Assembly (NCBI GenBank): GCA_947561715.1
Contig: OX387201.1
Coordinates: 10,864,001-10,928,000 of the forward strand
DNA: 64,000 bases
Source: Ascidia mentula
Lineage: Eukaryota; Chordata; Ascidiacea; Phlebobranchia; Ascidiidae
Direction of reading: 5' to 3'
The notes beneath the pieces are model-generated. The model was not told where the DNA came from. It was given only the letters and a program-made list of their open reading frames with translations, and searched no databases. Within the stretch, counting starts at the first letter, position 1. The number at the start of each line of letters is the position of its first letter. Positions 23,201 to 64,000 of the stretch are shown here, piece by piece. The position numbers and the translations under genes were made by a program.

Positions 23201-26200
23201 GAGTGTTTGTTGTCCTGCTTGCCTGGTCAGGAACCGTATCTACTTTCTCCTTTGGTGCAATGGAAATAGATGCAGCTGTTGCGTTCCACCAAATAATACG
23301 ACTTGCGCTGCCTTCTTCCTGTAACTCGGCACTACTTGGTACTCTTTCCACTTCAGGGAGAGCATTTACCGGTGACGCAAAAATTGAATTAGTCATGACA
23401 TTTGCTTCATCCACTGAAAATGTTGCGTTGGTTGTTGTTTTGTTGTCTGTTGATCCGTGTACTCCTGTCTTTGATGGAACGATTATGCTTGGATGCACAA
23501 TAATTGACAATGGGTCAGGGGTTGATGTCGTAACTAGCTCTAATGCATCTTGATTTGATGAAACGTTCTGAACAACAGCAACCTTTGTAACAGAGTTACT
23601 GTCGTGTATGGTTACCTGGTCGTTCAAAATATCATGGTCGGTGGTTAATTTCACATGGCCACCTTGGGATGTTGTTGAAACCTTCTCTGGAGAATTTGGG
23701 ATTGACGTCACTGGTGTATCCAGCGACGGTTTCGATGACTCCGCAGATTTTACAATTCCCTTGTCTGACGTGGCATGGGTTAATGGTAATTCGGTAACAA
23801 ACAAAGTTGCATCAGGTGTCTGCACAGTTGTTTTTACTTCTTCGCTTTGTATACGATCAGTTAATGTACTTGAACTTGCTCGGGTGCTTTGTGTTGTATT
23901 TCCGATGGTGTTGTCAGGTTTTGGACCAACTTTGTTTTCCAGTTGGGCTGCCGTCGTAATTCCGAACGTTTGATTTTCAAGAGCCTCATTAGTTCCTTCT
24001 GTCACTTCCATACCTCCATTCATATTCATTGATGACCATGCTGTCCCTTCTGTTAGTGTGCTTTGAGTTGTCGATGACATTGTCTTTGGCATTACAGAAA
24101 ATGCAGCACTTTTTGTTGTCGTAGATTCTGTTGTTGCGATTGAAATGGTTGCAGCCATTTTTCTTTTTGTTTCTGTAATTTTTACGGTGGCTGGTGGTGT
24201 TGTGTTCACCGCATGTTTAGGTGATTTTATTGTAGTTTTTTCCGTTGGCATTGTTGTTGTTTTGGGTGTCTGCATCCTACTTGTTAATGTTGGCGTTAAA
24301 GTAACTTTTGGAAAACGTATTTGTGGCTTTGACGAAATAAAAACGAATTTCTTGGTTGAAGAAAAGGTGCTGGGAATTGCGGGCACCGTAGGTTTTAACT
24401 TTGGAAAATTGGATGTTGTGGAAGTTACTCTTTGAGGCACATCTGGCGTTACCACAAAATCAATATCCAAGTCTTCGCTGTAAAATTCGTAATCATCTTC
24501 TGAAAGCAGGAACACAACAAGTTTAATATCACGTAACAATTGGTAACACGTAAACGAATGTTACCAATTTCGGTTTCTTCAACTTCTTCAACTTGATCTG
24601 CTATTACATCAAGATCGATGGGTAACATGATGGCCCCCATTATGTTTGCGGCAATACAGCTATTTGAGGAGAATAAATTGTATGTTAGAGTTGCGCACTT
24701 TAAACAAATCAATTAAGAAAAGTTGGACAATCACCTGTAGGTCCCAGCATGCCTCGGGCGAACGTTGGTAATCTCAATCGAGTTGTCTGGATGAACAGTT
24801 TCGTCATCTCTACTGGATGAATTGCTGAGCAGTAATTGTCTAGATGGCGTTCTCCATGCTATTGTGGCAGAAGGTGCCGCCTGGAATTGCAGTCAGTTCA
24901 ATAACACTGTTCTCATAGCGTTTGCATACAATGTCATATATATCAGTGAATTAAGGTATTGTGCAAGAAACATTATGCGCAGTAAGTTTATCAAACAGCG
25001 CTACGAAAATACTTCTGCGATACCTAAGTAACAGCCTACAACACAACGCAAGCTAGAAAAGCGGTAAAATTACGTCAATGGTGCAATCCGATCTCCAACT
25101 TTTTCCTATCACTGCATTTTCCTGAACGGCATTCTCTACAGCAATGCTGCTCGCCTGGACGATGTGAAGTCTAACGGAACCGATATCTTCAGCAATTCCA
25201 CTTTTTGCAATCGATTTCGCGATGCAATAATACACACCCGCGTCATCAACTTTTACTCTTCTTATTACCAACCGACCACTGTTGGTGACACGAAATCTGC
25301 CACCTCTTCTACCTGGCCGAATGACGCGCTCATTTGGTAGGACCTGTAAGATGAAATACACGAGGATGGAAAAGTTTGCCCAACAAACTAACATTAGTAA
25401 ATTAAACCACAACGTGTGCTCAGATCTATGCTAAGAGTTTGCCAAAGCTTTGAAATAGCGCCAATACGGCCGCCATGGATGTTTGTTTACGGGGTTATCA
25501 AAGTTTCAAAACACAAAGGATTGTCCAGAGTCTGAAGTGTTTTATTTATTTACGCCAAGGTTCAACTGTGGAATGCAAACCAGCACAAAAATCTTTTCAG
25601 TAAGACATCGCGGTCTTTAGAGCATCACACTAAAATAAAAGCACTTACCCACGATAACATTGGTCTTGGACTCCCCATCGCTCTACATTTCAGTACAAAA
25701 GTCCTGCGTACTGTCGTTATGAGTGTTTTTTGCTTTGCTGGGTAAGGTTCTACCAACAACGTCCAAGGTTTGTCCTTGTAGTTATCATCGGCATTTGGAC
25801 GGAAATTAACTTGATTGCGAAACAACAATACAAGCTTCCGTTCCTATATATACAATGGTCACACTAACATGTATATAAATTTTAAACCGAGGGGTTTTCA
25901 TAAAACTATGACCTGTTACTAAACCTAAAGTTAGTTGAACAAATTCACAAAAAGCGTTTGTTGGAAAAGTTTTGTCAGTCGCAAACGTGTATAGTTCGTC
26001 AATTATGATGTCAGCAAAACAACAGAATTGTCATACCTCAGGACGAAATCGATTGGAGGTGATAGTCATTGTAAATTGCGGTGACGTAATAACTTTCGAA
26101 GCTTCAAGAACAGAAGCTGAGACAATTCTTAAACCAGAGCCACGGGGATGAAGTGGTGAAGTTGGATCTCCTTGTATCTGAACAGATGACGCGTTGTCAA

Positions 26201-28634
26201 AAAGGGACTATTTGATTCTACGCAGTTGACAAAATGTAAGTACAGTCTTGCTATTTGGGTTTATAAATTAAGTAATTGGTGGTCGCATCTGAAACAGAAG
26301 CAAATCCAAAATTGGGTAACGCTTTATAAATGGCGCGACGAATCGAGTTTCCGTTCAAAGGCGATATTGCCATACTTGTACTTTGTAATCGATGGGATAC
26401 GTGGCGTCGACCAGCCGTCTTGATCGCGCCGAGAAGTGTAAGGCGGCGTTGAGATAAGGTGTCACAATGTCATCCAATCGCGCAGAATCGATAGGATAAT
26501 TTATCGAGCAAGTCATCAGCTGCTCGAATGAGGCGACATAGGTGACACTGCTGTTGATTGCAATGTTGGTGTCGGTCTCGGGTTCGCGTGACGCGTTACA
26601 ATGCATCAGAAGTAGAGAGCTGACTGGGCTGTCAAGCCTTACCGTCATGCTTTCTTTTGCCCGCGACCCATGTCTGAACAACATCGCCTCTGCGAGTAAA
26701 ATAGAGGCAAGCAGTCACTTGGACCGACAAAGATTGAAGGCTCCAGAACCGAGAGGATTACTGATAACCAATATAGCGCGGCCACAAACCCCACCTTATC
26801 TCATGGGGTGATACGTTTTAAATGCGATACTTTCCATGTTGTCAATGCCAACAAAAACGCAAAGATTGAAAATTTATTCAACGTAAATATCTTGACTAAA
26901 AATGTTTTTCACGCCAGCGAATAAAAAATTGTTCAACAAATTACAGAGTTCGCAAAAAACAAAGAAATTGCCAACATCACACTTTTTAAATAATGTAGGT
27001 CAACGGAATAAGGGGACTATCACAAACCCACAATTTACAATTTTTCATGGCAGTACTTTCACGCCATCGGGGATCAACCTGGTAAATATCAAGTGCGTAG
27101 TGGGATTGTAACTGACAGACGCAGATGTGTGCGTCGGCACACCTGTAGAGCGTATCAATACCTCACTTTACCCACATAAAACACACCTTGCACGCCAATC
27201 GTTAAACAGTCACGCTTTACCAACCGTTTTGAAGTTCGGTGAGAGTTGGGTCTTCGTCAAACCTTTGGTGAGCTGCTCCTTCGTGTGGTTTAAGTGTATC
27301 TGGCGGGGTACAGGTGATGTTGTCAAAGGGAACTTGTTCAACGATGCGCCCTCGAAGGCGAGGTGGTGAAGCACAAACCGCACATTCGGGTTCACTGTTT
27401 GGCCTTAGTAAACTTCGTTTGCACCTGCGAGATTTAGCTTTGTTTTAATTTCAGTAACAAATGGCGTCGCTCATTAATCAAACAATGCGTCAAAACACGC
27501 TTTATCAGACAGCTGAAACACTAAGTTGCTTTGTTGCCTGTGTAGATGAAACAAAAAATAATTTCACAAATACGTAGAGATTACAACACAAACATATATT
27601 TGGGAAATTAAAATGTTTTTTATTTATTTCAGTGCATCGCATTTGAAAGTTGGAGAACAACCCACCTATACTTGTTGCTTTCCCTAATCCATTGATGCAG
27701 CCACTGAATTTGACAAGTACATTCCCAGGGGTTCCCGTGTAAGTATACTTGCTGCAGGCTGGACATGCCAGGTAGCAACGCTTGTGGTAAGACTTCTAAA
27801 TTGTTGTCCCCCAAATACAAGCGCTGAATGTGCGAGAAGCTATCATAAAAGAACAAGATTTACTTGAAATCAGAACAAAACCGTTCCAAAATTTCCTATT
27901 AAGAATAACCGTACTCGTGGCAATACTATGAATTTTTAGGCAAAGTGTTTAACAATCAAATTATATCACTACCTAAAGTATTGGTCAAAACGGATAGTGG
28001 CGAAGTTGTCCGCATGAAGCTTTGTGAGCTTATTCCCCTCCAATTGTAGTAGAGTCAGGCTAGCTAAGCCTATAAAAGCTTCAGGGTGAATGAAGGTAAT
28101 TTTGTTGTGATCAATGTGGAGCCGCGATAGTGCTTCCAGCTTGTCAAAGGACAACTTAAAAATTCCGGAAATTCCGTTCCAACTTAGGCGAAGCACTTCT
28201 AGGCGCGTCAAACCGCTGAATTCTCCGCCGTGAATTGATCGGATTTCGTTGCTTTGTAGGAACAAAAAACGCAAGGTCGAACGTGTCCCCGCAAATGTTG
28301 TCTGTGAAATTCGTTTGATTTTGTTGTAGGCAAGATTTATTTTCACCACATTTAGTGGTATTTCCTCTGGGACTTGGTTTAACAGTCGAAACGTGCAGTG
28401 TATCTCTCTATCGCTGTAACATTTACATTGCCTTGCACAGCGCGTGGAAACGCCTCGCTGCAAAGTGTTCGGTAGAATTTGTCCGATTCGTTGAAGAACT
28501 TGTCTTTTGTGTGACCTGTCTACATTAACATCGTTATTCGATGCGGACTTTCCAAACGAGACAATGCATACAAGAAAAAGTGAAGAAAGAATAAATGAAC
28601 TTCTTTTTAAAGTACATAAAGCTGCCATGTTCAA
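20233..28634 (-). CDS. MXRA5/IGSF10-like protein: LRRs, Ig domains and a mucin-like region
   Basis: Nineteen exons give 1682 codons: 27973-28634, 27672-27839, 27225-27394, 26376-26689, 26037-26177, 25649-25843, 25074-25343, 24735-24880, 24565-24659, 22672-24499, 22456-22496, 22000-22054, 21734-21937, 21503-21678, 21129-21253, 20881-21071, 20483-20601, 20328-20423 and 20233-20285. Order: signal peptide, LRRNT (CARQCKCY), about six LRRs, LRRCT (NPWECTC then CAVC and NITC), the family-specific domain after the LRRs (MHCNASREPETD, INSSVTYVASF), Ig1-2, a Ser/Thr-rich region, Ig3-5, and a short tail. The match to vertebrate MXRA5 continues through the linker (SW, then VLPNE across an exon junction). 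The family comprises large secreted matrix proteins. The gene ends three Ig domains early; those lie in the next gene downstream. The donor of exon 27225-27394 (alternative end 27221) and the short last exon are the least certain points. Confidence 0.88.
22101..22383 (-). mobile_element. tRNA-derived SINE-like insertion with target-site duplication
   Basis: A 76-nt tRNA-like unit lies at 22193-22268 on the minus strand. It has a 7-bp acceptor helix (GCTCCTG with CGGGAGC, one wobble pair), a D arm, an A-box-like TAGCTCAGTTGG and a perfect 5-bp T stem with B-box GAGTTCAAACC. The middle cannot form a normal 5-bp, 7-nt anticodon arm, so it is not a working tRNA gene. The block 22114-22370 is bounded by identical 13-bp direct repeats (GATTTACGTTGAT at 22101-22113 and 22371-22383), as left by LINE-assisted insertion. 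It sits in the intron between exons 22456-22496 and 22000-22054. Unusually, about 100 bp precede the tRNA-like part, so it is not at the 5' end of the element. Confidence 0.75.
22672..24499 (-). CDS. Large Ser/Thr/Pro-rich (mucin-like) exon of the MXRA5-like gene
   Basis: A single 1828-nt exon (phase 1 in, 2 out) encodes about 609 residues rich in Thr, Ser, Pro and Asn with runs such as TPKTTTMPTEKTT and ATTESTTTKSA. It has many N-glycosylation motifs and no cysteine-based domain. Vertebrate MXRA5 and IGSF10 also have a long unstructured region between their N-terminal and C-terminal Ig sets, so position and composition agree. It probably forms an extended O-glycosylated stalk. A 198-bp piece (23293-23490) was copied to 1976-2173. 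Confidence 0.88.
27672..28634 (-). CDS. Signal peptide and leucine-rich repeat exons of the MXRA5-like gene
   Basis: Exon 27973-28634 starts MNMAALCTLKRSSF with a hydrophobic core (ILSSLFLVCIVSF), then carries the cysteine-rich LRR cap and repeats such as LRFLFLQSNEI, LEVLRLSWNGI and LTLLQLEGNKL. Exon 27672-27839 adds IQRLYLGDNNL, LQQVYLHGNPW and the first LRRCT cysteines. The remaining LRRCT cysteines come in the separate exon 27225-27394. The ATG was chosen because it precedes the signal sequence; MAALC two codons later is an equal alternative. Confidence 0.88.
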
Positions 28635-28639
28635 AAGAT

Positions 28640-31600
28640 CACCACAGCAAGGAATAAATCAGTTTTTCACATCACAGCGTAACAGCTTTCTCCATTGAAT
28701 AAATTCCTTTTCCCTTCAGGCGTTCCACAGCAAAACAATGCCCAAAACTGTATCTACCTAATCTGCAACAAAACAAACGCGTGACTACAAGAACCTTGTC
28801 TAGAGTTCAAAAAAACGTCTAACTTAGCTAAAGCAGTTTCGGATGGGGTTTAGCAATCAATATAACACAACAGTTTGACAGCGAACGGGGGACAAGTGGG
28901 AAGCACTTGCGACGTGCGCCCATCACTGAGTGACTTTAACAAGCTGTAATGAAGTGGAATGCCCAAGGAATTGAGTTATTCTTTCAACCTCGGTTCGAAA
29001 AAGGCTGTCGAGGCCGCATAAACAGGCTCTGTAAACGTTATTTTAAAGCTAAACCGCCATGATGAATCGCTCCTTTTCAATTTCAAGACCACCGCGGTGG
29101 CCGTCTGAATGTAACATTCCACTGGCATTTGGCACAACACGTGAAATTTTTTCATGCTTATCTGTTTCTACAGCGAACCATTTAACGCTCAAATTTCGGA
29201 GGCATCGCACATGTCAACACATCTCATGCAACCATCGTTAAATGATGGAAAACTATTTGACTCCCTCTGCCACAGTTTAACCTTCTGGTGGTTCTTGTCG
29301 ATGTGTGTGGCGTAATTACTCTGTTCGGATTACATTTTTACCAACTCAACTTGTCTAAACAGCATTTTGGCATCAATGCACCACCAGAAAAAAGTCGACC
29401 CCATCGCCACAATTAAAGATGTCCCAGAGATGACACTTACTTTTCCTGAATTTCCAAGTGACTAAAACATTTTCCAGCAAACCGAATTGGTGAGACTTAT
29501 GTGCCCACTGCCACCCGAGACTTTGATTTATAACATAGCAATGCACGTAATCTAATACGTAATGAGCTAAGAAAGTTTGCTGTCCATAATTCTACAACTG
29601 ATGTCGATTAATATCTTTCAATATTTACTCTTGTGTCTCGACACGTTCCAACACAAAGCCTCAGCGATTTGCGACAAGACAGTTTAGGCCAAGATTGTAA
29701 CGTGCTATTTGCTTTCACGCATTGTTAAAATCGCAAATGCCTGACAGGTACCAGCACGGGGCCGTTTTAGCAAACTTACACCGTGTGTTACCCACTAATG
29801 GGTATGCTGAATCTAAACAAGCTCTAGTGCTATTCCACTTCCATTAACGTCTTTCACCACGCATTTAGTGCAACCAACAAATTCACGGACACAAAATACA
29901 TGGAAAGAAGTTCTGCCGCGAAATCCATCTAAACTTTCACGAAAACAACATGTTTTGGCACACGTGCTGTTTTTCGTCACCCTGTACGTCAAAATTTGAT
30001 TGATGAACAAATGCATTCAGGCTACCTCCTTGGCATTGCATTTAACCAGCAGTCATCCTTAAATAACCTTGCAGTATGACGTGTGCGATGGGTCGATTAT
30101 GATATCATAGTAAGATGTCGGGCCGTCATTTGAGAAGCAGATAAAGCTAGTTTCATGCGTCGCCTCGCTCGAACCCGCAGTTCAATCCAACAATTATGAA
30201 AGTGGCCTGTTAAGGATCGCCCCACTTGGAAGCGTCACAATGAACATCGCCATTGTTATTCGTGGTTGAGCATCTGAACCGCAAAAACCTGCGTATAGGC
30301 ATTTTCCGCAAACCGGAATCGAACTTCGTGGTCCCTCACCCGTTTTGAATTGTAGGATGCAATGAGGTGTTGTTAATTATAAGTTTCATACTCAATTAAA
30401 TCAATCACTATTTCATATGTCCGAATTGCATGCAGTAGAGTTAATTGTGACGCAAAATACGAAACATTTCGCGTATTGCAAGTCCTCGAAGCATAATTTC
30501 AAGCAGGCGGCTATCAAAGTAAGACGGAGGAGACCTACTGGGTGGTAACTTTACGAGCAAGGAAGATTACGACTTATCATTTAAAAGGAAATAATATATA
30601 TCATACTTCTTCAAGCGAATTCTAAAGTTGGAAAGGTAATTAAAAAGTGCTTATCGGTAAATATCCTGGTAATGGTGTGTTACATCGAAAAAAGTGGAAA
30701 AATTAGGCTTTACCCTGTGCAAGGTAAGCCTACTTAATCATCGCCGTTGGACTGGAGCTTGCGCATATATTTGATTTGGCGAAGATACTATATGCTCACT
30801 CCAATTTACAACCCCTCCTTCACGTTGCCGAATATCTCCTTCCTGTCCAAGCAAATACCACTCGGCAATAGAATGTGTCGGGGACAATTAGCGAAGTACT
30901 CTGTGGCAGTCTGACAAATCATCGAATAAAATTTATTGTTGTTAATTTTGTGCTGAATTGCGTAACACTGTAAATATGTATTGGCGATTTTCGTTTAACT
31001 AATATCCAAAATTACAGAGAATGTTAAAATATTTCCACATAAACCAATTTTTACACACTAAACTTGCAATTAAACACTATAGCACTTACTTTGGATAACC
31101 GTGGGCATGTGTTTCCAAAAACATCGCATTGAATATAACTCTGAAAGTGCGTTGTGTTGAAATTATCTCCGCTCGATTGAAAAATGAGTATTTGAAAGAG
31201 TATCCCGGTTCATTATCTTGACTTTCTTTGATGATAACTGCGCATGTGCGCACATTGGTGCGGAACTGCTGTGTCATTTTTGGGTGTTGTGGATTTCCAC
31301 ACCTTTAAACCACTACAAATGAAGTGTGACTGGGAAGGAAAAAGCTTTGCTTTGTTGTGACACAAAATATATAACGTGGCGGTCTTACGTCAACATTGAG
31401 ATAGGGGTTCTTTGTGCCTAAAGTCAACATCGCAACAAGATCAAATATTTTATCAAATCATGTACGGGAAATAGGTGAATAGAACGTTATTTGTAAATGC
31501 ATTCCTGGAATGTAATAACTACATACTACAATAGTAGTGTCAATCAAATTTTGACATAAGATCTAACGGATAGTTCTTCCTTTTTCATTGCACGATTTGT

Positions 31601-44100: not shown

Positions 44101-47100
44101 CAAAACGAAAAGGCAAACATGTTTCACGTAGACGCCGCTGCCGCGTGCGTCGTGTAGTTTGTGCGTTCACACTGACTATCGATCCAAAGTGCATTTTTTC
44201 TGCTGGAAGATTTCGCTTTGTCGTCTCTCCTTAATAATTATCCGGCTGGCGATTCGCGTGTTCCTCATCTGCCATTTGACACTGTCCAAAAATTTAACGT
44301 AGCCAGATCGTTTAAGTGATATTATAACGGTGCTTGTATTGCGCAATACATTCTTCGTGTTTACGTACAAGCCAGTGCGAAAGCCCTCACATGTAACAAT
44401 CGCAATAACCAACAATGTTTGCAATACACACCGTGAACTTTGCGGGTTTTATCTGCGGGCACACGTGTTCACAAAAGGCAGCAGAAAGCAGAAGGGATTG
44501 TGTTTTGTTTAATAACACAGTGATGCAGACGATGTTAATCGTGCCCTGGGGCAGTAAAAGGCGAAGGTCCCAGACAAGGTTGTTTAGAACTTAACACGCA
44601 ATGTGGTTTTGTGAACTCCCGAAAGAAGCTAAACTTTGTGAAAAAAAGTATCTCAGAGCTGGGATTAGGCAGTACTGCCTTGGCGGTGATTGCGTTTTCA
44701 TGCGGAACTGCCGTCCGTTTGGCAGTTCAAAAAACTATCGCAATTTTGATCACGAAATTAAACATAGTACAGTGCGGACAAAGACGAGACGTCGTGTACT
44801 AATTATTGGCGAAACAATGTACTAGACACGACAGCTAAGGCTTTGTGGATGGAAATCAAATTGTGATGGATCGCTTTTATTGACGCGAAACTGTTGGTTT
44901 GTGGGTGGCATATGCCTGTTTTATTCGGTCTTGCTTTGTACACAGTGTAAAATAGTATTTAGTATCAATCTGTATGAAATTGTAGATTTGTTAATCCGAA
45001 AGTGTGGAAATAGGATATTTATGACGTAATGTATCATTGTTTTCGGTCACACACCCCTAGAGGTTGAAAGTGCGCAGTAAACAGCACAAAATGCATGTCA
45101 ATGTTTTCAACAGTATGGGCCAGTCTCTTTGTTCTCATAAAACACCCATTTTTGTGAAAATATATTACATCGTTACACGTGATATTTGTATTCGCGCTGT
45201 AGATACAGACGGCGATGTTGTCGTTTAGTCTTCTCAGCACAACATGTGAGATGTAGCAAGGTTTTACCATGGCGTTGAACAGCTGGGATGATGGTGAAAA
45301 AGTGGCTCACAGATGTAATGCTGAGGGTAGCTTAGTTGAAGCAGTTTCAAGCATCCCCGACTCTTGTTTGTATTCCCACGACGATTATTAGAGTAGCCAT
45401 TGAGACGAATTTGATGTGTGTTTGCCTCTTGAACAGAACTGCTGCTGCTATAGTGGGCCCGCTTAGCCGTGATTTTACAAGTTGTAGGGCTGTGTGAGTG
45501 TGACAACCATCGATCGACGCCGTGTTCCATTATATTGGTGACTGTCGCCGTGTGATGACCTGAAGCCCATCCAGCATCAATCTAGGGACATCACATGCTG
45601 TGACGACAACCGTCGGAAAGGGGAGTCCGACAAGAAGGCTGTGTATTGATTCCTGTCTCAATCTGTCGAGAAATTTGGCGAACAACCGGCGTCTATCGAA
45701 CGACAAAAGAGGAAATTTGTCCCTGCCACTGTGACAGCTTCCGGGCGCTGAGGAACTACAAGTATCTGTGGTGGCGTTTCTTAGCCTTGTTGGCAATACT
45801 AGCGGCGAACCTTGGACTCCGGCCCACCTTCCAATTGCACAAGAACGTAAGCGTGCGCCATTGGCTGCTTCGCAAACGTGCTAACCTCCCTACTATCCTT
45901 ATTTTCATCACAACCTCACATAAATACACACAATAGCCGGTTTCAAACCTGCAGCATACACAAAATCTCGTTGCGGAAATTTACCTACTGATCTTCACTT
46001 TCTTCTTGTCTCCCAGCTTCTCTGTGACCTAAAGTTTTCTCTAAGTTAATTTCCTATAAGAGACCAACCAGTACATTTGGCATTCCCTGCAAGTGTTGTT
46101 CAATTGGCCGTGCTTCCTGTGACCTGCCGCGTTTCAGCCTTGCACTGCTGCGCTTTGCCGTCATAAATGGAGTGTATGTATATAATCACCATATATAGTT
46201 ATTACGTAAATTGCATATATTTGTATATCATATTTATACAACAATTCGAGTGTGGGTTTACAGTGCCTTCAATAGAGAATCTCACAACTGGGATATACAA
46301 CAAACATGACACTGTAAAGTGGACTTCAAGTTGTTTAAAACAATATGCATTTATATACTTTGATTTGTGTTTAAGTTTTTCAAACTAATCCAAAAACCCT
46401 TCGTGTTGTTTTTGGGCAGCGTGTTTATCTGCTTTGCATGTCAAGGTTTGGCCGCATTAGTTGTGGAGTGGGCTTTGTAAAGATCAACGTTAACGTTCTG
46501 TTGGCACCAGTTGGCATTGCTTCGAAAATGTCTCTTCCGGTGAATTCGTCATTACAATTTTGCTCCCATCGTTTTGCCTCACTGACAAAACGCAAACTTT
46601 GGAGCAAAATTCCATTGACGTATTTACCAGAAAAGACGTTTTTATCTAGAAATTTCAAAAGAGTATATATCAGCTATTTCAACATTGATTTTTGGCCATT
46701 TTGCAATTCACGTTGACGACTGAGGCTAGGTTTAATGTGAAACTTACGTATGTTACAGCACACGGAGTTGGTTGCGTCACACCAGTATCAGCCAATGTAC
46801 CTTCACTTTCATCTACGCAATTGGCGGTTGGCCAGTTACCCACCATGCAGCAGTTGCCACAGATCCGCGACCCTGAATGGCTCAAAGTAGAGGTGAGTGC
46901 TGAATTGGCGTCTGTCTCGACTGCTTAACCAGCAACACATCTCATGGGATTTTAACTCTGTGTATCACACGTAGCGTTTGTTAATTTGCTAAACTCTGGT
47001 CGATATAGAGCATGATGCAAATACCTGGTAGTTGCATTTAAGGTGGCGAAATAATACGAGTTCTGTTCGTTTGACCTCCCACGTTCTTTGGGCGTCATGA

Positions 47101-50100
47101 ATACCACGTACACGTGGCAATCGAGTGTTACTTACCGCGCAAAGCTTATTACACAAGCACTCGGATGAACCTGTCTGGAATGCTAAAAGTCACTTAACCG
47201 TGGAACTGATCTGCTACCTGCCTTCAATATGCTTATTTTTCTCATAAAATTTTATATTCGCTGTTCCAATGCTGTCTTGGTTTACTGGCATCGTTGTTTA
47301 CATCCAGTTTTTCCTTTTTTATTCAGGTTTGTCGTGAGTTCCAGCGTGGAGCATGCAAAAGAACTGCTGATGAATGCAGATACGCTCACCCCGGCAAAAA
47401 CATTCAGATTGCTCCCGATGGTAAAGTCATCGCCTGTTTCGACGCTCTGAAGGTAGGCTGGAAGCTCGTAAACCTAAATGAATCCAGTTGAATATTCAAC
47501 CCATAGAAGCGCCTTACCAGGGTTGTGTAATAACGACTTCTCGTTAGCAACTTAAATATGCAACGTATATACAAGTTAGTTCATAATATCGTATCGTCTT
47601 GTCTTGTAATTTCTTTTAAAATAGTATAGTGCCCACTTTAAAGGTGTTTACGTTATAGACATGCTACCTAAGCCGGCCTGCTTTCACTTACATATATTTA
47701 CCTGCACAACTATTTCAGCTAATTTTTTATACCTCGCGTTTGCCAGGATAAATGCTAATTTAAATTGCGTGCCCTTTAACGAACTATTGTAGAAAGCCTC
47801 ATTTTGCAGTTACCATAAATTATTTATCATAGTTTTTCAACAAGATGTATGCGCGGGGGTTGCGTTAAGCAGTCTCATATTCGTGCTTGCGAAGTATTTG
47901 ATGCAGCTAAATTATATTTATTTATTTTTGGATACGAATCAATAATTCAAATTAATTGGAAAACACCTTCTATTAAAAATAAAGTAAAGGAACGTTTCTG
48001 TCGCAGTAAAAAGTGTTGACGGCGTCTCTGAGTAGTAGTTTTATATTTTAAACTAGTTAGAAGGTGTTTGGGCATTGAAAGTGATGCTGAAAGGTTATAA
48101 TAGCAGTGTAAGAAGCTGTTATTTAGTTGTATAGACTTAACCTGACACCACTTGAATTTACATTATTGTGGGCAAAATGTGGCATCGTTCAAGCGTATCC
48201 GACTCGCCCGGGGCTCTACGTGATCTTCCATATAAGGGTAACGTGGATTTCTTCGCTGATGGTTATTCAATCCATTTGGTGCAAATAAAAAACATTATGT
48301 TTTTACCATCCATCTATTCCCTGTTACAATGCGCCGATATGTAATGAACAGCGAAGTCGCGCCGTTAAATCTATAAATGAACACTCTGGTTGTTTAAATA
48401 TTTGCTTGATTCGTTCCTACACGAGACCTTGAATCTTACCTGAATAGGTGAACCAGACGTCGCGTGTTTGCAAATGGCGTTTAAGAAACGTGGTTTGTTA
48501 GTGTGATTTAGTCTGATTTTAAGAGTAACTCGTCCATTTCGGTCATGCCTTTCTGTTCATTTTTCACATGATAAGTAAAAACACCATTGTGTTGTCAACA
48601 TGTGTTGAGCAGTAATTTTTGATCGACTGATATCTCTGTTCGTTGTTTCAACTGTGCTCCATGTGTGCATATCATTGATGATGAAATCAACACAATGTAT
48701 CGCGCTCCTCTTGTCGAAAAAAACAGTTCCGACTGGCTTTGGCAACATGTAGGGGATCACGTGATGCCGATCACCAAATCACCAAAGGCAAACTCGTGGT
48801 TGCAGACCACAGTTTTACTGCGCTGCCTTATCGGGCAAGCTGCTGCCTGAGATTGTTTATCTCTGTTTAAAATACTGTAGGTGAAAGTCAGAAATTTTGG
48901 TTACTTTGCCAATTAAACGGACGGAATTTGTCCACATTGTAATATTGACAGAGGTGTATATTGTTATACATGCAGATGGTTTAAGTGCTGTACTAAACCG
49001 GGTATGACAAAAAATCGTCAAACGCAAAAAATATTTTGAAATGTTGCCGGTTATTTACACGTGGCTTATTCTGATAGACGCGTTTCAATTTGATGACTAT
49101 GAAGTTTTGCTGTTACATTCTACCGATTTTTACCAACCTGTATAATCTAATGAATATTTGAGATCTGAGTCACCACCAAACTCAGCCTAGACCGCAAACG
49201 TTTTGCCCCAAGAGATTTGCTTCATTTTTTTACCCAGCTTACTGAAAATATCATTTTAATATCCCTAATTTTCGTATTCTCTCTAAATTCCCCTTTCTCG
49301 CGTTTTAACCTTCATTACTTCTCAAAATATGTCGCAATTTTGCAGAAAATATAAGCCATTATAAATACGCCAATCAGCTTAATAGGGTGTGCGACGGTCA
49401 TTGGAAGTGCAACTTTCTGACGGAAATAGAATCCCGAAGACTTGACCTTGTCCGAATTAAGTATGACACAACACAACAGGCGCATATCTTGGCTCCTTTG
49501 GGAATTTTCTACAGTCAGAAGTGACACTACACTCGCTTATCATCTTATCCCAGCCGTCGTTACTTATTCTATCATTCAACCGACCTTGCAAGTTCATTTA
49601 AAGGAAAAACTATTACAGAACCTCCTCTACATGAATCGAAATTAGATTACTAAATTAATCGCACCTGGCAAGCGGTTTATAAGCCGGGGTCAGAATGACA
49701 ACGAGGCTCAGTGCGGAAATTGTTGATTGCCTTTCAGGAAGTAATGGAGAGAAATTGTTTTCCGTATTGTTTTGCTATGTTGTGAGCTTTGTACCATTTT
49801 GATGAAATTTAATGCACGTATTCACACTAATACGTCACACGATGATGGAGATGATGATTGTACAAATGCATTAAACGAGTCTAACGGCGAAGTCATGTGT
49901 TTAGCAAAATAATCTCGAAAGAAACAAATGACTATTTCTTTCTGGATCTACGTTTCTTTATATGTGTATATGTGTGAATTAATACCCTGTCTGCAAGGTC
50001 TCAAATACCATGGTTGTTTTGAACAATTTGTCATTAAAAAAATCGCCAAAAAATGTGATGAAACAAATCAATGAGCATTGGTCATGGTTTTGTGAAACCT

Positions 50101-56100: not shown

Positions 56101-59100
56101 GGGCAATGGTGGCAGACAAGGTTGAGGTGGCGCTTTCGCCGGTTTGGCTTGTGGTGTTATCACTTCCCAGTCTTATACTTTCCAACTACGAGTGTAATGT
56201 GTGTCGGGTGCCTACCCATGCAGTCGGCATTTTTCTGAACTGAAAACTTGAACGAAACAAGACACCTGAAGTTTGACGTTGGTTGCAAGTTAACAAGCTA
56301 TGTAGAGCCAGACAAAGTAACTATTGCTATTTCACACGTTTTCAAAGCTAGTACTTGCTGTGGCACAGCTGGTATGAAACGTCGATGTTATTTTCCACAT
56401 TCAGACCCTTCTTCCGAAACTAGCTTCACCGAATCTTTACGAAGCGAGCTGAGGAAGAAGCTGCTGATTGTGGTCCCGCTCGAATGTAAACTCATGTTAC
56501 GAAATGTCAAACAATGTATCTTTCGGTGAACTACAACTTATTCTCCCGACCTCACATGCTTTACCACCCTTTCTTCGCTTTGTTACTAATAGACTTGTTA
56601 CCAGAAGCCTTTACTTCGAGCGTTGCTGTCAAACAAATAAAAGGCTTTTAACACAACATCGCGACTTTGTTTCTTCGCGACTTGACTTCAAAAAGTGGTG
56701 CAAACTTTTCTGTACAAGTATTATCTTTTGATTCTTATTTTCCCTCGTACCATCTTGCCACGACCAATTAAACTTGAATTTGTAAGGTCCTCGGACGGAG
56801 TGTTCTTTAATCCTATTCGCCCTCTTATCTTTTTCTTTATTTTCTTACACAGCGACTGGCGTCTTGTCTTTTCATAACCGAAATACAATTATTCCAAACT
56901 GGCGTTTGTGAAGACCTGCAAGCAGGGCCGATATAAAAGCAACGGATCGCACTATTCGTGCTCAAGCGTTGTTGGGTTTGGGAAGCTCGCTGGCGTTTTT
57001 GTTTGAACGGACAATTCAGCTCTTACCCAGTGGTGGAGTGCTCTCGACTGCGCTTCTTCGACGCCACTTTCACTGGGGGAGCGCGGAAACGCGAACTACT
57101 CAAAACCTGATGAGACCTCCCTCTGCATGACTATTATCCGGATTAGAATACCCCTATCGGTAGTTAGTTAGTAGATTGATAATTCACACTGTTTTGCCTC
57201 TTGTTGTGTTAATTGACAATATCATGCATTCCTTATATCGAATAGAAAGTATTGGTTGCGCTGAAATCAAAGTGGTTGTTGAACCATTTCAATGCAATGC
57301 TTATTCGGGATGCGTGTTGTTTGGATTAGTTTGGGAAAGTTATCGTTATCAGGTGGTAGAGACGTTCGTGTTGTGTTCTTCTCGTGCCGGTCGTCCTGGT
57401 ATGTTAATTGCTTCGTCGCGCCTACGCTATTTCTTCCACTGGTTCACTCGATGGCTTTATTGCAGTAACGTTCGTATAAACTAAAACAATTACACACAAT
57501 CGTCATGAAGGACAACGTTTATCATTAACAGGGAAATATACAACCGGGTCATTAACTGTTCAGCCATTTTGTAAAATCTGGTGATTAATGACTGTGGGCG
57601 AGGCCATTAAGATGTTTCAGTATGGCAATGTTTGTTAGCAAATCTATCAATCCTGCACATGCAACAAACTCAATGTTGTGTTACTGATTAACTTTGATAC
57701 TTGAATGTGATTCGTTTTTGGACGTCAAGCGCAACCCTGGCACAATCTTAGGCCAGGTGTAGAAACGGCGCTCTGTAAGCGTGGAACAAAAAATGATCAG
57801 TTTGTGAGCTAAGAAAAAGATAGCGAATGTAGATGATAAATAACAGAATACTTTTCGTTTGTTTAAATTTATTTTCCATTCATTGCAATTTCACACTTAG
57901 GTGCAAAACTCTCATCCCGCTCATATCGTTGCTGATTAATTTCATTTGCGATTCTATTTCGTCTCATCGTGAAACTGTGAGTTGTGGCTCAGGGCCGCTG
58001 TAACCGAGAATCGTGCAAGTATCTTCATCCCACCTATCAACTGAAACAGCAACTCGAGATCACAGGCAGACAAACTCTTCTACAGAATCGAGCAATGCTA
58101 CAACAGATGTTGCCTTTACAGCCAAGCGTGATGCCGACTGCCATTCCACAAACAGGCTTGATTGGATATGAGGTGCGTACCAATCAATTTTCGATAATCT
58201 ATCCGTGTACACCCGTGTATGTTAAGTCACTTTGGAGTTATTATCTAGTTATAGTTTGCTGCTCCACCGTTTCGTTTGAAAAGTTATCGTAATTTTTGAT
58301 CAAGTTGTGTATTTTTGGTATTGCGCAATTTTGAGCTTTCGTGAAAACTAATTAAAGTTGCTGTAAATTTTCAATGCAAACATGGGTGGAACAAACTGTC
58401 CACCAGCAATGTTCAGCCGCTAATTTAGTAGCCTCACCTTTACTGTTTCACGTGCAACGTCGTATGTTTTGTCATTTTGTGTTTGCTCTGTTGGCTGGGC
58501 GCACAAGAGCAGCCGTTTGCCCTTCGCGCTTACATTAAAAAATCCTCGTTAAAGTTTAACGTGTTCGCCTGCCTACCAATAGTAAGTGGGTTATTAGCTC
58601 ACCAGACACGCTCCGGAAAGAATATGAAAAATTGCGCTTAACAAGCTTGGGTCAAAAAACTGGGCCCTGATGCGATTAAGAAGCCTGTGTGCTTGTGCTG
58701 TGTGCTGCTACAATCACCAACACACAGCCGCAATAATTTAATTTGTGCGCAAATTTTGTGTTTGTTGATGATGATTGATGCCTAACCACAAAAGCAGCCT
58801 GTCGTGTGGAAATCAGTTTTCGGCATCTAACTGCTCTCTTTGTATATTATGATCATTAAATTGCATCTCTTCTGTCTCCTGTCCAATCTCCTTCCAATTC
58901 CATAACCCCTTTCCTTGGCTGTAATAATCTGCCCATTGTGCTTAATCCGACCGCCCTTTCCCAACCCAAATCAATATTACCTTTTATTCATTGATGTGCG
59001 CAGCAACTTACCGGCGGAAGCGCTCAGCAAATGGTCAGCAGTCTGCACACCAACCAGTTGTATAGCCCTAACGTCGCTGCACCCGCTGGCACAGCTGCTT

Positions 59101-62100
59101 ATAGTGTGTTGCCTTCAGGTATTGTCCTCCTCATTTGCCGCAACTGCTCCTACTTAACATTTACATTGTACATGTTGCTTTTGCGTAACATTGGTTTGCA
59201 CTGTTTACGCGGTAATGTGAATTTAAATTGCCCCCGCGTTGTAATTTGCTGTTAAAGATTTGCAAGTATAGCAATGCTACCAAAATACATATATTTATGT
59301 TTCTGCCGCATTGAAGTATAGTTAAAAGGTCTGGAGCTTTGACCTATAGACATACATTAAATATTCCAATCTTTGGCCATTTGGATATAACTGTTATCCA
59401 ACCATGCCAACATCATTTACCAGACTTGGCCTCCATCAATCCGCATTACATGACGTATTATCCCATCGCAGCATCTCCTGGCCACCAACTGGCCCTCGCG
59501 CAGCACTCCGCTACGCCTCAAATGGCCGCAATGATTCCGGCCTCTGGAGCTTTACGTGCCGATAAATTGGAGGTGAGTTGTGTCATATAGTATTGTATAA
59601 AAAGACATTTCGACCAGATATATTTCGTATTTCTGGTTGGCAACAACTATTCACAATTACTGTTAACAAAAGTGGGTATTCCCCGACGCATGAGTCAACC
59701 GATAAAAAACCAAACCATGAAATCTGTCAAGATTTAGGACCATGGGCGTGATAGGGTTTCCTGTTGTCTGTGCACTTACTCTCTGCTGTTTTTGCCGCCT
59801 CACTCCCATGCGCAAACCCAACCTCAAGGTGATTTGCTTTCTCCGTCCGCATTCCTAAACACCATAATATTTTCGCTTCACCTCCCCTGCCCTTTTAAAG
59901 CGTCTCACATTTCCAGCCTGGGCCAGTTTCTCGTTGGTTTAGTCACGCTTGGTTACTTGCGTCTTGCAAAACGACCACAGTGAATTTATAGAACAATTCG
60001 CCTTTCTGGGCATGTTTGGCAAAACGCCATGGGACCTTGTAATCTCGTTTATTTATTAAAGTTGGCTTTGGTTCGAATTTTAGTTAAATGAACTTCGACC
60101 CTGCTTTTTGTATCAGATTGTTTCTGTGACATTTGAATAAAAAACAGTTTACGAAACACACTTTTTTCTGGTGGTTTTCGATATAAATTACATTTCCTGA
60201 TCAATATTGTTTACTGATGTGTGAATCGCTTGTCCAGGTTTGTCGTGACTTTCAACGTGGCAATTGTACACGCGGCGAGTTCGAGTGTCGCTACTGCCAC
60301 CCACCGGACAGATCTATGATCGATGTTACTGATAACACGGTGACAGTTTGTATGGATTGTATCAAGGGGCGGTGCACTCGCGAGAAGTGCAAATACTTTC
60401 ATCCTCCCGCCCACCTTCAGGTTCGTCACTGATAGTCTGTATGTTTTACATATGCTCATTCTTGCACCCTGATAATAATCGATGAAGAATTTTGCATTAA
60501 ATTTTAAATGTTCGATTCAATTTACGTTACATTTTTGTGGTGATCACCAGATCCACGCGGTTTTTATCATTTTTCACAACAAAATCAAACAAACATCATT
60601 GTTCTGTGAAATTTGAACAATTTTCACATTTACGTCGTTTGATAAAGTTAAGTGGCAATCAAACGATCGTGTGTTTCTCAATTCAATTGCCACGAACCCC
60701 TTTGATTGGTGGTGGTCAATTTATCCACGCTTTAATTCGTTTCAGGCCAAAATTCGGGCAGCTCAGAACCCGGCTACCGCTTTTCTGCCACCTATGACAC
60801 CTGGCACGCTTTCCACAGCTGCTCAACCTGCTGTCATGGTAGGTGTTACCACAGCACCAAAACGCCGTGATCGCGACCATGGCGTCGTATTGTGCATGGC
60901 CTGTACACCCACGGTAATCCCGTTGGGTTGCCTGATGTGTGTATGTGTGCTAACCCTGCTGGGATTGATGGGATGATTAATAATCTCCCATTTCATCGAG
61001 CCGCTGGCTTGTGCAACACTAACATAAGTCCCTATTCAATTTCTGATTATATATTAACAGACGTTGATTTTAAACCGTCCCTTGTTTATAATTTGACATA
61101 TACTGATTTCCATCTATAACCAAGTGTGCATGGGACAATTTTCTCCGCATGGGACAAATAATGTTGTTACCTAATTGATTCTGACTTGCTCCTAGACCTT
61201 GTTAGTGTTTTGTCAACAAGTAGTTTGAGCAACCAGTGGTAGATTAATTTCTTGCTTTAAGCCATTCATACCAGCGTTCACGCTTGGCGCATTTCAGACT
61301 TGACAAACATGTTCGTTTGCAATCTTAGACTCAGTTTCTCCGTTTTTACAGTTTAGTATTTCAGCGATTAATCGCGAATATTTTATTTTTCTCCTCCGCC
61401 TCTTCACCCACCTCACTCATTTCTTCCCCTGCAATCCCGAATCTCGTGCCCCGCTTGCTGATTGCCTCCGCGAACCCTTGCCTATGATCTTTATTCACCT
61501 CCTTACAACCCCCTCCCCCCGCGAAATCCGCAGGCACCAAAACGAGTTCTTACCCTGGAGGACGTGGTAAAGTTTTCGCTAGTCTTTTTAATAACAAAAA
61601 TTGTCCAAAATCTATGTAATATAAAATTTGGTTCGAACACGTTATCGTTTTTTCCAGAAAATATGGGTAAGACGGGTCGTTGTAAAACTCGTGGCCATGC
61701 GAACACCCTCCCCCTTTGGCTTGATTATTTGCTCGATTATTTACCATTTTGCATGGCTCCTCGTATTTTTATATTCTAACCAAATGCATGGCCGGGACTT
61801 TGGATTCACGGCAAATTGACCTTAGATCGCAGATAGCTTTTTCTGTCACTCCACCTAGTGGTGTGACCAAACTCCGGTGCTGTTGGTTAATTTGGTATAT
61901 GGTGATTTTATGGTGGTGTTAAAACCGATTGAGCGGGATGACGGGGCACGGTGACGTCATTCACCCACCTTCGTTCCTTTTTTCCGAAATATCCCATTCC
62001 CGCTTGCAGATGACTAACGGATCAGGACTTGGTCAACCTCCGCTGAAGAGACATGCCCTCGAATCCTCCATCATCACTTCGTCTGCATCTGGACTCGGCT

Positions 62101-64000
62101 CCTCTCCAGGTCTTGCTCCCTCTCCAAGCGGTTCGCAGAGCGCCGCAACTTTGGCGGCACTTTATGGATACAATAGTGGAGCTCTACAGGGTCTCGTAAC
62201 TCTGTCGCACCAATCGATGCAACCCGCCACGCCCACTGCTTACTATCAACAAGGTACACAGTTTTATGTATTATTTACAATCCCCGGTTAAGTGAGATAG
62301 TTACACTTTATCCGTCGTTGCTGTGTCTTTTTTACGTCACGCGAAAAGGATTTTCTTAAAGCTGTACTCACTTTTAATACTGGACATTCTGACTGTTTCA
62401 GCCGCAGCCACCATGCCGATGCTTCAGCTTTACGGCAACACTGGAGGGTCTATTGCTACCCCTGGGGCAGCTACTGCCCAAAGCACTCAACTCACAACGT
62501 TCAACCTGCCTTCGACGAGTGCCAGCACTCCCAGCGCTTCTGCAGGCTCATACGCATTTCTTAATGGGCAGAGTAGTCAGGTTAGTCACGGGGTAGCATA
62601 TTATCTTTGTTATGCTTGTGATATGCAGTTGTTTATATTTGTCGTTTGTACTGTTACCGTTTGGATTGTTTGTGGGTGTGTCTGTGTTTGTCATAAAATG
62701 GTGCAGTTTGTGATGTATTTTTGTGAAAAACCTAAAATAATATCAAAAATCCAAATTTAAACAGAAACGTCTTGACTTTTTTCCTTAATTTGTTATTTTC
62801 CACCGAACCTCGTTGTGGGCTTTAAATGCAAAAAACAATTAATTGCACTTTTCATAAATGTGGCCCCTGGCCATTTGACTGCACCATTTTCTTTCGGGCT
62901 ATGCAAATTTGCTTGCCGGCACTTAACCGACTAACCAACCAACCAGTCACGCTTATACGCTTTCCATGTTGTGCCTGCGTGTAGTTTTGCACCGAATTCA
63001 CGGTGAAAACTCCACCCTCATCGCAACAGCATTCCCAACAACAACAGTCGTCGGGGGTTACAACCATGACCGTATGCAGAGACTTTCAATCTGGAAAATG
63101 TGTGCGACCCTACTGTCGTTTTGTGCACGTGCGGGAAGGTACAGGCAGGCGCTGTTCGATTGCAAGCGACTCATTTTGCCGCATGATCGCAAGCCACATG
63201 TACGCACTGATCATTTTTGCCAGAGCCGCACTCGATAATTCTGCATTGCAATTCGCTGTGCGCGCCTTTGTCTCGGTGTGTTGTTGTGCAATGAAAATTC
63301 CCAGTAATTTGTGCCGGTTGTGAATTAGGGTTTCTTCATTTTTAATCCATGTTTGAACATTCCAATTTAATCTGTCAAACGAATGAAGCAAATAACCTTT
63401 GATGTTCTTGGTGAAACATTGGAACATTCTTCTGGATGGTCAACACCTTTGTCATCTTGTATTTCACCTGTATATCGTGTGACGTCAATTCATCAATGAC
63501 TTTTTCAATCTCGGCACGCAGCAAAGCAATCGTGTGAAAAAATGTACGATTTTGAAAATCGATTTATTTCTGCAGGTGAAAACTCTCAATTTGTGGTGTT
63601 GGAAAGCACTACAGAACGTCACACTCAATTACATTCACGCTCATTATTTGGTTGCCGCTCGTTGCCAAACCGTTTGGGCAAAACCATTCTGCAACATTTA
63701 TAGCATTTTTAAACTCTCCGTTTGTTTTGCAGATTATGTTGAAATAAAAGACGACAAAGTAACTGTTTGCCGTAACGCCCTACAAGGTAAGATATTAGTT
63801 TTTGTTGCCTCCATTACGCTTCAAAATAAGTCAGTGTTTAAATAAAGTAAAGATGTTGCATAATCTAAGTGGAAATGCGAAGATCGCCATTCAGACCACT
63901 TTGTTTTTTTAGGACGATGCGCAAGACCCCAGTGCAAGTTTTATCATTTGCCCGGCACAAGTTCGTCTCCCACTGAAGGTGCGCTACTCGATGCTCACCA
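41187..64000 (+). CDS. MBNL: Muscleblind-like RNA-binding protein (CCCH fingers), 3' end beyond window
   Basis: Fourteen exons fit in phase: 41187-41247, 46759-46892, 47327-47452, 57993-58172, 59004-59118, 59424-59572, 60238-60420, 60746-60838, 61534-61566, 62010-62253, 62402-62580, 62985-63138, 63733-63786 and 63913 to beyond 64000 (about 597 codons so far). [17 protein letters not shown] matches the MBNL N-terminus. Fingers 1-2 (C-x7-C-x6-C-x3-H and C-x7-C-x4-C-x3-H) span exons three and four, fingers 3-4 lie in 60238-60420 ([25 protein letters not shown]), and a third pair begins at 62985. Between pairs are Ala/Gln/Pro-rich linkers and LKR-type basic motifs. MBNL proteins bind YGCY RNA and control alternative splicing and RNA localisation. 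The first exon ([10 protein letters not shown]) is supported only by its ATG, donor and matching phase; translation could instead start within 46759-46892. Confidence 0.93.
41248..46758 (+). other. Long first intron of muscleblind (or upstream region)
   Basis: This 5.5-kb interval contains no exon I can support. If the 41187 exon is not used, it holds the promoter instead. GC-richer, CpG-containing patches at about 42600-42950 and 43420-43510 stand out against the AT-rich background and could be alternative promoters or untranslated first exons. A 40-codon frame at 45269-45391 ([11 protein letters not shown]) has no supporting context. Confidence 0.4.
46759..47452 (+). CDS. MBNL: Muscleblind exons 2-3: N-terminus and CCCH finger 1
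   Basis: Exon 46759-46892 ends [10 protein letters not shown] and splices in phase 0 to 47327-47452, which begins [22 protein letters not shown], a C-x7-C-x6-C-x3-H finger. It continues through [18 protein letters not shown], the linker and first cysteine of finger 2. This exon-intron arrangement (finger 2 split after the DALK motif) matches the known MBNL gene plan. Confidence 0.93.
47453..57992 (+). other. 10.5-kb intron of muscleblind splitting finger 2
   Basis: No coding exon with a conserved motif was found in this long intron, which is far larger than any other intron in the window. Open frames such as 53470-53700 (minus) and 54214-54474 (plus) have no recognisable domain. In other animals muscleblind genes have long 5' introns with regulatory roles, so enhancers or non-coding transcripts are possible but not shown here. 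Confidence 0.45.
57993..58172 (+). CDS. MBNL: Muscleblind exon 4: rest of CCCH finger 2 and linker
   Basis: The exon begins [18 protein letters not shown], completing finger 2, followed by a Gln/Leu-rich stretch ([13 protein letters not shown]) resembling the helical tail after finger 2 in vertebrate MBNL. It ends in phase 0 at a gtgcgt donor. Confidence 0.93.
60238..60420 (+). CDS. MBNL: Muscleblind exon 7: CCCH fingers 3 and 4
   Basis: One 61-codon exon encodes both fingers of the second pair: [22 protein letters not shown] (C-x7-C-x6-C-x3-H) and [20 protein letters not shown] (C-x7-C-x4-C-x3-H). It is close to vertebrate MBNL fingers 3-4, including the linker DNTVTVC and the tail PPAHLQ. 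All metal ligands are present. Confidence 0.95.
61534..61566 (+). CDS. MBNL: Muscleblind 33-nt microexon with basic motif
   Basis: Eleven codons ([11 protein letters not shown]) lie between a polypyrimidine tract with a CAG acceptor and a gtaaag donor, phase 0 on both sides, so skipping keeps the frame. Its place and its KR core resemble the KRP motifs encoded around the alternative exons of vertebrate MBNL that affect nuclear entry. It is supported by splice sites and position only. Confidence 0.6.
62985..64000 (+). CDS. MBNL: Muscleblind exons 12-14: third CCCH finger pair
   Basis: Exon 62985-63138 carries a Gln-rich run ([11 protein letters not shown]) and then [20 protein letters not shown], a C-x7-C-x4-C-x3-H finger. 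Exons 63733-63786 and 63913 onward encode [18 protein letters not shown] and [15 protein letters not shown], a second C-x7-C-x4-C-x3-H finger. The inter-finger linker (DDKVTVC) is like that of fingers 3-4 (DNTVTVC), and the intron falls just before GRC as it does in finger 2. The junctions are phase 0, 1 and 1. This is a finger pair of the muscleblind type, in frame with the upstream exons. Known chordate MBNL proteins have four fingers. The reading frame is still open at the window edge. Confidence 0.85.

Follow-up and report, generated by a model that had tools for sequence, protein, structure and literature searches.

A Predicted Third CCCH Finger Pair at the C-Terminus of an Ascidian Muscleblind

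Introduction

Muscleblind proteins are splicing regulators that are sequestered in myotonic dystrophy. The locus considered here raises the question of whether the muscleblind gene of the ascidian Ascidia mentula encodes a third pair of CCCH fingers behind the usual two and, if so, how this pair arose and what it might contribute to RNA recognition. A first-pass annotation of the stretch of 64,000 nucleotides that we analysed (hereafter, the window), which spans bases 10864001-10928000 of contig C69, had noted two additional fingers following the usual four and had taken them for an intragenic duplication. As a whole, this interpretation is partly supported. The observation itself, i.e., a third pair in the predicted muscleblind product, is confirmed at the level of the gene model, while statements on the exon structure of the pair and on the number of pairs in the fly had to be revised. 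The reading that we favor, with a probability of about 0.75, is that of an old, divergent third MBNL-type pair at the C-terminus of muscleblind, encoded in frame as part of a six-finger product and likely to provide an extra tethered RNA contact.

A divergent additional pair is already known from one fruit-fly form, according to the cited part of Irion (2012). In the open-licence literature on ascidian, amphioxus, and other tunicate muscleblind, on six fingers, and on MblF, no description of a six-finger muscleblind was met in the text available from these sources.

Structure of the Muscleblind Gene

The gene lies on the forward strand and closes 142 bases beyond the window end, its 12 coding exons occupying positions 46845-64142 in window coordinates (Table 1). 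A scan of splice borders and frames yields a predicted protein of 584 residues, running from ATG to TAA, with GT-AG borders at all introns and compatible phases throughout. In this protein, the CCCH fingers, six in number, begin at residues 18, 53, 208, 244, 470, and 503, so that 137 residues separate pair 1 from pair 2, and 208 residues separate pair 2 from pair 3. Exon 1 was also recovered by tblastn (E 0.002), and 14 of its residues are aligned by phmmer with the MBNL1 chain 5u6h.

Table 1. Coding exons of the muscleblind gene in window coordinates.
Exon	Position	Strand	Content
Exon 1	46845..46892	+	Start codon and 16 LEV-box-like residues; found by motif-directed donor scan
Exon 2	47327..47452	+	Finger 1, N-terminal half of finger 2; phase 0/0
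Exon 3	57993..58172	+	Remainder of finger 2 (|GRC...); preceded by a 10540-base intron
Exon 4	59004..59118	+	Linker between pairs 1 and 2
Exon 5	59424..59572	+	Linker; ADKLE| at its end, ahead of finger 3
Exon 6	60238..60420	+	Fingers 3 and 4 together; 183 nt, phase 0/0, in-frame skipping possible
Exon 7	60746..60838	+	AKIRAAQ... following pair 2
Exon 8	62010..62253	+	Basic PPLKRHALE stretch and low-complexity linker
Exon 9	62402..62580	+	Low-complexity linker; NGQSSQ| at its end, phase 0
Exon 10	62985..63138	+	FCTEF...VREG; finger 5, zinc ligands 63075-63128; phase 0/1
Exon 11	63733..63786	+	54 nt, phase 1/1; 12-residue linker, N-terminal half of finger 6 (codon of its first Cys, 63768-63770)
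Exon 12	63913..64142	+	Remainder of finger 6 (His codon 63945-63947); phase 1/stop, TAA 64140-64142, C-terminus ...STLTDVSGV

Some details of the 3' part of the model allow for variation. The preferred acceptor of exon 10, at 62985, is weak, with a pyrimidine tract of low quality; splicing to 63030 or 63048 instead would also preserve the frame and both fingers. An AATAAA signal is situated at 63743, within the exon that encodes the linker of pair 3, and its use would end the transcript ahead of finger 6. Another AATAAA is found in the following intron, and an ATTAAA 35 bases past the stop codon of exon 12. Between exons 7 and 8, positions 61534-61566 form a possible cassette exon (CAG acceptor, 33 bases, phase 0, 11 residues, then GTAAAG), which could insert a basic stretch, as do regulated MBNL exons of vertebrates.

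The affiliation of the gene with the muscleblind family is apparent from its first two pairs, which are of the MBNL type. When compared with PDB sequences by phmmer, pair 2 matches 2e5s at 3.6e-39 and MBNL1 at 6.8e-38, and pair 1 matches MBNL1 at 2.8e-33. The RD.WL/LEV box ahead of finger 1 is present (an exon-1 stretch of 15 residues, compared with IRDTKWLTLEVCREF), as is the intron pattern of the family, i.e., the 10540-base intron at K|GRC in pair 1 and the confinement of pair 2 to one exon. The Pfam model zf-CCCH_10 matches the whole predicted protein at 6.4e-63 in 6 stretches. Since this number exceeds the described maximum of two pairs per muscleblind protein, we regard the gene as a variant muscleblind rather than as a non-member of the family.

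No further muscleblind locus emerged from the genome (195.8 Mb, 79 contigs), in which only the best-scoring candidates were evaluated. The genome-wide zf-CCCH_10 search (E<=0.001) lists four matches, all inside the window gene and corresponding to fingers 1-4; the split fingers 5-6 are absent from these matches at this threshold. Six of the seven matches listed by tblastn for muscleblind likewise belong to the window gene, the remaining one having E 0.24. CCCH matches as such are spread over nine contigs. Thus, among the best candidates scored, a single muscleblind gene was found.

Fingers 5 and 6 as an MBNL-Type Pair

As the first-pass annotation had claimed, two CCCH fingers follow the first four and are joined in phase through three exons with GT-AG borders (phases 0/1, 1/1, and 1/stop). 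In the spliced product both fingers are complete, each with the spacing C-x7-C-x4-C-x3-H, and lie 15 residues apart. They form a pair with the within-pair distance characteristic of MBNL (14-16 residues) and with MBNL proteins as their best relatives. The strict MBNL-type pattern (C-x7-C-x6-C-x3-H in the first finger and C-x7-C-x4-C-x3-H in the second) is not observed, as finger 5 and finger 6 both read x7-x4-x3.

Pairs 1 and 2 alone, from the window and from human, were used to build a profile, which was searched against 3639 six-frame peptides covering 82 kb. When the peptides are ordered by sequence E-value, pairs 2 and 1 take places 1-3, and places 4, 5, and 6 go to the three exons of pair 3, which are located on the same strand and match profile positions 1-23, 44-55, and 28-45, in agreement with the gene order. 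The best segments of the single exons score 16.5 (finger 5), 11.8 (finger 6), and 9.0 bits (linker exon). In 20 Markov-1 random sequences the best segment per sequence scored 7.3-11.4 bits, 9.0 being reached in 6/20; in the actual sequence, one peptide of the minus strand scored 9.5 bits. By these controls, the exon of finger 5 is above background, that of finger 6 only just, and the linker exon taken alone is not. Jointly, the three segments, which are ordered, lie on one strand within 1 kb, and are in phase, are significant. The joined product of pair 3 scores 50.7 bits against the profile of pairs 1 and 2.

The 145 C-terminal residues match zf-CCCH_10 at 3.7e-12. Counting against the MBNL assignment, the ZC3H11A-like model zf-CCCH_3 also passes its cut-off over pair 3 in the whole protein (31.8 vs. 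31 bits). A phmmer search of the C-terminal part against PDB retrieved 11 sequences at E<=10, six of them at E<0.001, with CPSF4 next at 0.033. Five of these six are labelled Muscleblind-like 1 or 2; the sixth, 2e5s, is labelled OTTHUMP00000018578 and is presumably MBNL2. All eight zinc ligands of pair 3 are conserved, while 25/57 of its residues are equal to those of pair 2; the chance of this would be 6.5e-4 if the matches were random.

One Product or Several

Although every exon can be joined into one frame, six fingers need not occur in one protein. Pair 3 might be used in isoforms without pair 2, or without exon 11, as both exon 6 (183 nt, 0/0) and exon 11 (54 nt, 1/1) can be skipped in frame, and the fly RF form, with two pairs of which the second is poorly conserved, offers a precedent (Irion 2012, in its cited part). 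The complete chain is already in frame, however, and no skipping is forced; we consider it unlikely that the six fingers never coexist. Even with a six-finger product, these skippable exons mean that splicing could set the number of working pairs.

Origin of the Third Pair

The proposed intragenic duplication fits the data: among the best 5 candidates scored by tblastn in the genome, the non-self matches of pair 3 are limited to pair 2, at E 8.9e-11, and pair 1, at E 0.044, its nearest relatives there. That pair 3 stems from a different CCCH gene is unsupported, given that only pairs 1 and 2 match among these candidates. Searches of animal-free collections, i.e., viral contigs (pairs 2 and 3) and prokaryote genomes (pair 3), produced 3, 1, and 171 pattern matches with 0 confirmed relatives, a result that has no bearing on other tunicates.

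The duplication does not appear to be a recent one. Pair 3 shares its residue with pair 1 of the window gene at 24/56 positions and with pair 2 at 25/57, and with the human pairs at 25/55 (MBNL1 pair 1), 24/57 (MBNL1 pair 2), and 25/57 (pair 2 of 2e5s), whereas the window pairs themselves are 66% (pair 1) and 77-78% (pair 2) identical to their human counterparts. Being about equally far from both pairs of both species (42-45% identity), pair 3 is no recent copy of fingers 3-4. At the 11 positions separating window pair 2 from human, pair 3 sides with the window once and with human once; at the 14 such positions of pair 1, it sides four times with each; and at the 8 positions that distinguish the two pairs, its residue is that of pair 2 at two, that of pair 1 at one, and that of neither at five.

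A tree had been proposed as a test of whether fingers 5-6 group with fingers 3-4, and this grouping lacks firm support: the best tree joins pair 3 to window pair 2, with 48% of 200 bootstraps and a branch length of 1.49 substitutions per site. The AU test rejects none of the three distinct unrooted topologies at 5%; its p values are 0.651 for pair 3 beside window pair 2, 0.534 for a position between the two clades, and 0.0575, close to rejection, for pair 3 beside window pair 1. The last of these is excluded by both bp-RELL and c-ELW.

In the first-pass annotation the split position of pair 3 was said to copy that of the known pairs; the copy is not exact. In pair 1 a phase-0 intron interrupts K|GRC, pair 2 is unsplit, and in pair 3 the intron falls in the Gly codon that follows, in phase 1. 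This intron of finger 6 is displaced by one base relative to the phase-0 intron of pair 1 and may have slid or arisen independently. In a study of tunicate GH6 genes, a one-base shift was not counted as a shared intron site in the part of the text consulted (PMC7464555), and we likewise do not count the finger-6 intron as shared with pair 1. Pair 3 carries a further intron in its linker, i.e., two introns vs. none in pair 2. Finger 5 has C-x4-C vs. C-x6-C in fingers 1 and 3, with two residues fewer between Cys 2 and Cys 3. Taken together, these comparisons indicate that pair 3 is a duplicate that either is old or has evolved very rapidly.

If fingers 3-4 had been duplicated recently in this lineage, this would be consistent with the best tree, with the first rank of pair 2 among the other loci found by tblastn (best 5 candidates), and with the motifs VTVC and CRDF common to pairs 2 and 3. 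Such a recent duplication is difficult to reconcile with the nearly equal identity of pair 3 to window pair 2 (44%) and human pair 2 (42-44%), with its single agreement with each over their 11 differences, and with the unequal intron counts, and we rate it as improbable. The origin that we propose, an old duplication within the muscleblind gene, may have given rise to a pair that also survives as the divergent pair of the fly RF form.

Rival Readings of the Last Exons

A still less probable reading is that the last three exons make up a separate gene or a second cistron, which would start at the Met of TMTVC. An in-frame ATG is indeed located just ahead of finger 5, at 63066, and operons are mentioned for the tunicates Ciona and Oikopleura in the cited part of PMC7464555. 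Against this, exon 9 has a good GT donor in phase 0 and contains no stop, its unspliced frame closing at 62760; AATAAA and ATTAAA are absent from 62581 to 63742; the exon phases join exactly; and the genome search, limited to the best candidates scored, produced no other muscleblind gene.

Codon usage in pair 3 is weakly coding-like, at -0.02 bits per codon in frame vs. -0.115 and -0.249 in the other frames, a score equalled or exceeded in 64/2000 non-coding segments; by exon, 10 and 11 fall below both other frames and 12 above both. That the three exons are the decaying, untranslated remains of a finger pair, as this weak signal in exons 10 and 11 and the long branch of pair 3 might suggest, is the least probable reading of all in view of an open frame of 145 codons over three exons, the 8/8 conserved zinc ligands, and the canonical GT-AG borders.

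Other Loci in the Window and the Genome

Elsewhere in the window, exons at 15240-16995 on the forward strand match the tyrosine kinase family PF07714 (4.4e-12 and 0.0037) and by eye resemble an Eph-type receptor kinase. On the minus strand, an immunoglobulin domain exon (1428-1829; PF13927, 1.9e-10) and leucine-rich repeats (27969-28658; PF13855, 6.3e-27) perhaps belong to one LRR-Ig gene. A Thr/Ser-rich open frame of 630 codons, also on the minus strand (22668-24560), matches no Pfam family at E 0.01. The genome contains two loci of GH6 (PF01341), on contigs C71 and C52, the latter with one TGA in the matched stretch; GH6 in animals is, according to the cited part of PMC7464555, not known outside tunicates.

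Comparison with Muscleblind of Other Animals

The predicted gene shares with vertebrate MBNL1/2/3 the LEV-box-like start, the AKI.AAQ sequence after pair 2, and a linker of 14-16 residues within pairs, as well as the long intron at GRC in pair 1 and the single-exon pair 2, for which the intron rule is given by Irion (2012) in the portion used here. It differs from vertebrate MBNL1/2/3 in its divergent C-terminal third pair and in the C-x4-C of finger 5.

The first-pass annotation assigned one pair to the fly protein, a view that is out of date. As described in the cited part of Irion (2012), insects also encode pair 2, in a single exon, and in transcript RF of fly mbl there is one more pair, whose conservation is considerably lower (32% identity, 49% similarity). 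Drosophila mbl RF (MblF) thus resembles the window gene in having a further, divergent pair besides pairs 1 and 2; MblF is described with two pairs in the protein (Irion 2012, same part), whereas the predicted window product has three. Pair 3 is a possible homologue of the divergent RF pair. One could go further and suggest that a third pair was ancestral to bilaterians and corresponds to the RF module, tunicates keeping three pairs in one frame and vertebrates having lost the third; we offer this as a tentative scenario, to which we give somewhat less than even odds. Similar C-terminal fingers may be present in other arthropod muscleblind records.

Among tunicates, muscleblind is also represented by CiMBL of Ciona intestinalis, which regulates splicing in mammalian cells; in the section of that study available to us, the finger number is stated to differ among muscleblind homologues without obvious correlation with activity (Oddo 2016).

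Predicted RNA Contacts and Functional Implications

Several residues implicated in RNA contacts of MBNL1 (as given in the consulted part of PMC9780971) have counterparts in pair 3 in our alignment. Finger 5 conserves the counterparts of Arg186, Phe188, Gly191, Arg195, Arg201, and Phe202; finger 6 conserves the positions of Gly227, Arg228, Arg231, and Lys235, with Phe replacing Tyr236. Since Phe202 and Tyr236 of MBNL1 intercalate at the GC step (PMC9780971, same part), it is of interest that both intercalating positions are aromatic in pair 3 (Phe and Phe). By the same alignment and the same source, other contacts are lost, i.e., Arg190 is replaced by Ser, Met222 by Arg, Tyr224 by Ala, and Lys226 by Gln.

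We infer that pair 3 would fold like MBNL fingers 3/4 and would read GC dinucleotides via those aromatic and Arg/Lys residues that it retains, while its flanking contacts would be changed; it may act as a divergent GC-reading module on a flexible arm. Two GC contacts suffice for four-finger MBNL1, which gains nothing when the GC dinucleotides number more than two, as reported in the cited part of PMC3103431. This finding speaks against a simple benefit from more fingers. Pair 3 is hence expected to widen site geometry or choice while adding little affinity: the extra tethered contact may broaden the spacing or the kind of site bound per muscleblind molecule, with no great rise in affinity.

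A muscleblind that naturally has six fingers could serve directly to test the effects of finger number and spacing on target choice. Should the fly RF isoform prove to have the same third pair, the four-finger MBNL of the textbooks would be a form reduced in vertebrates rather than the complete ancestral complement.
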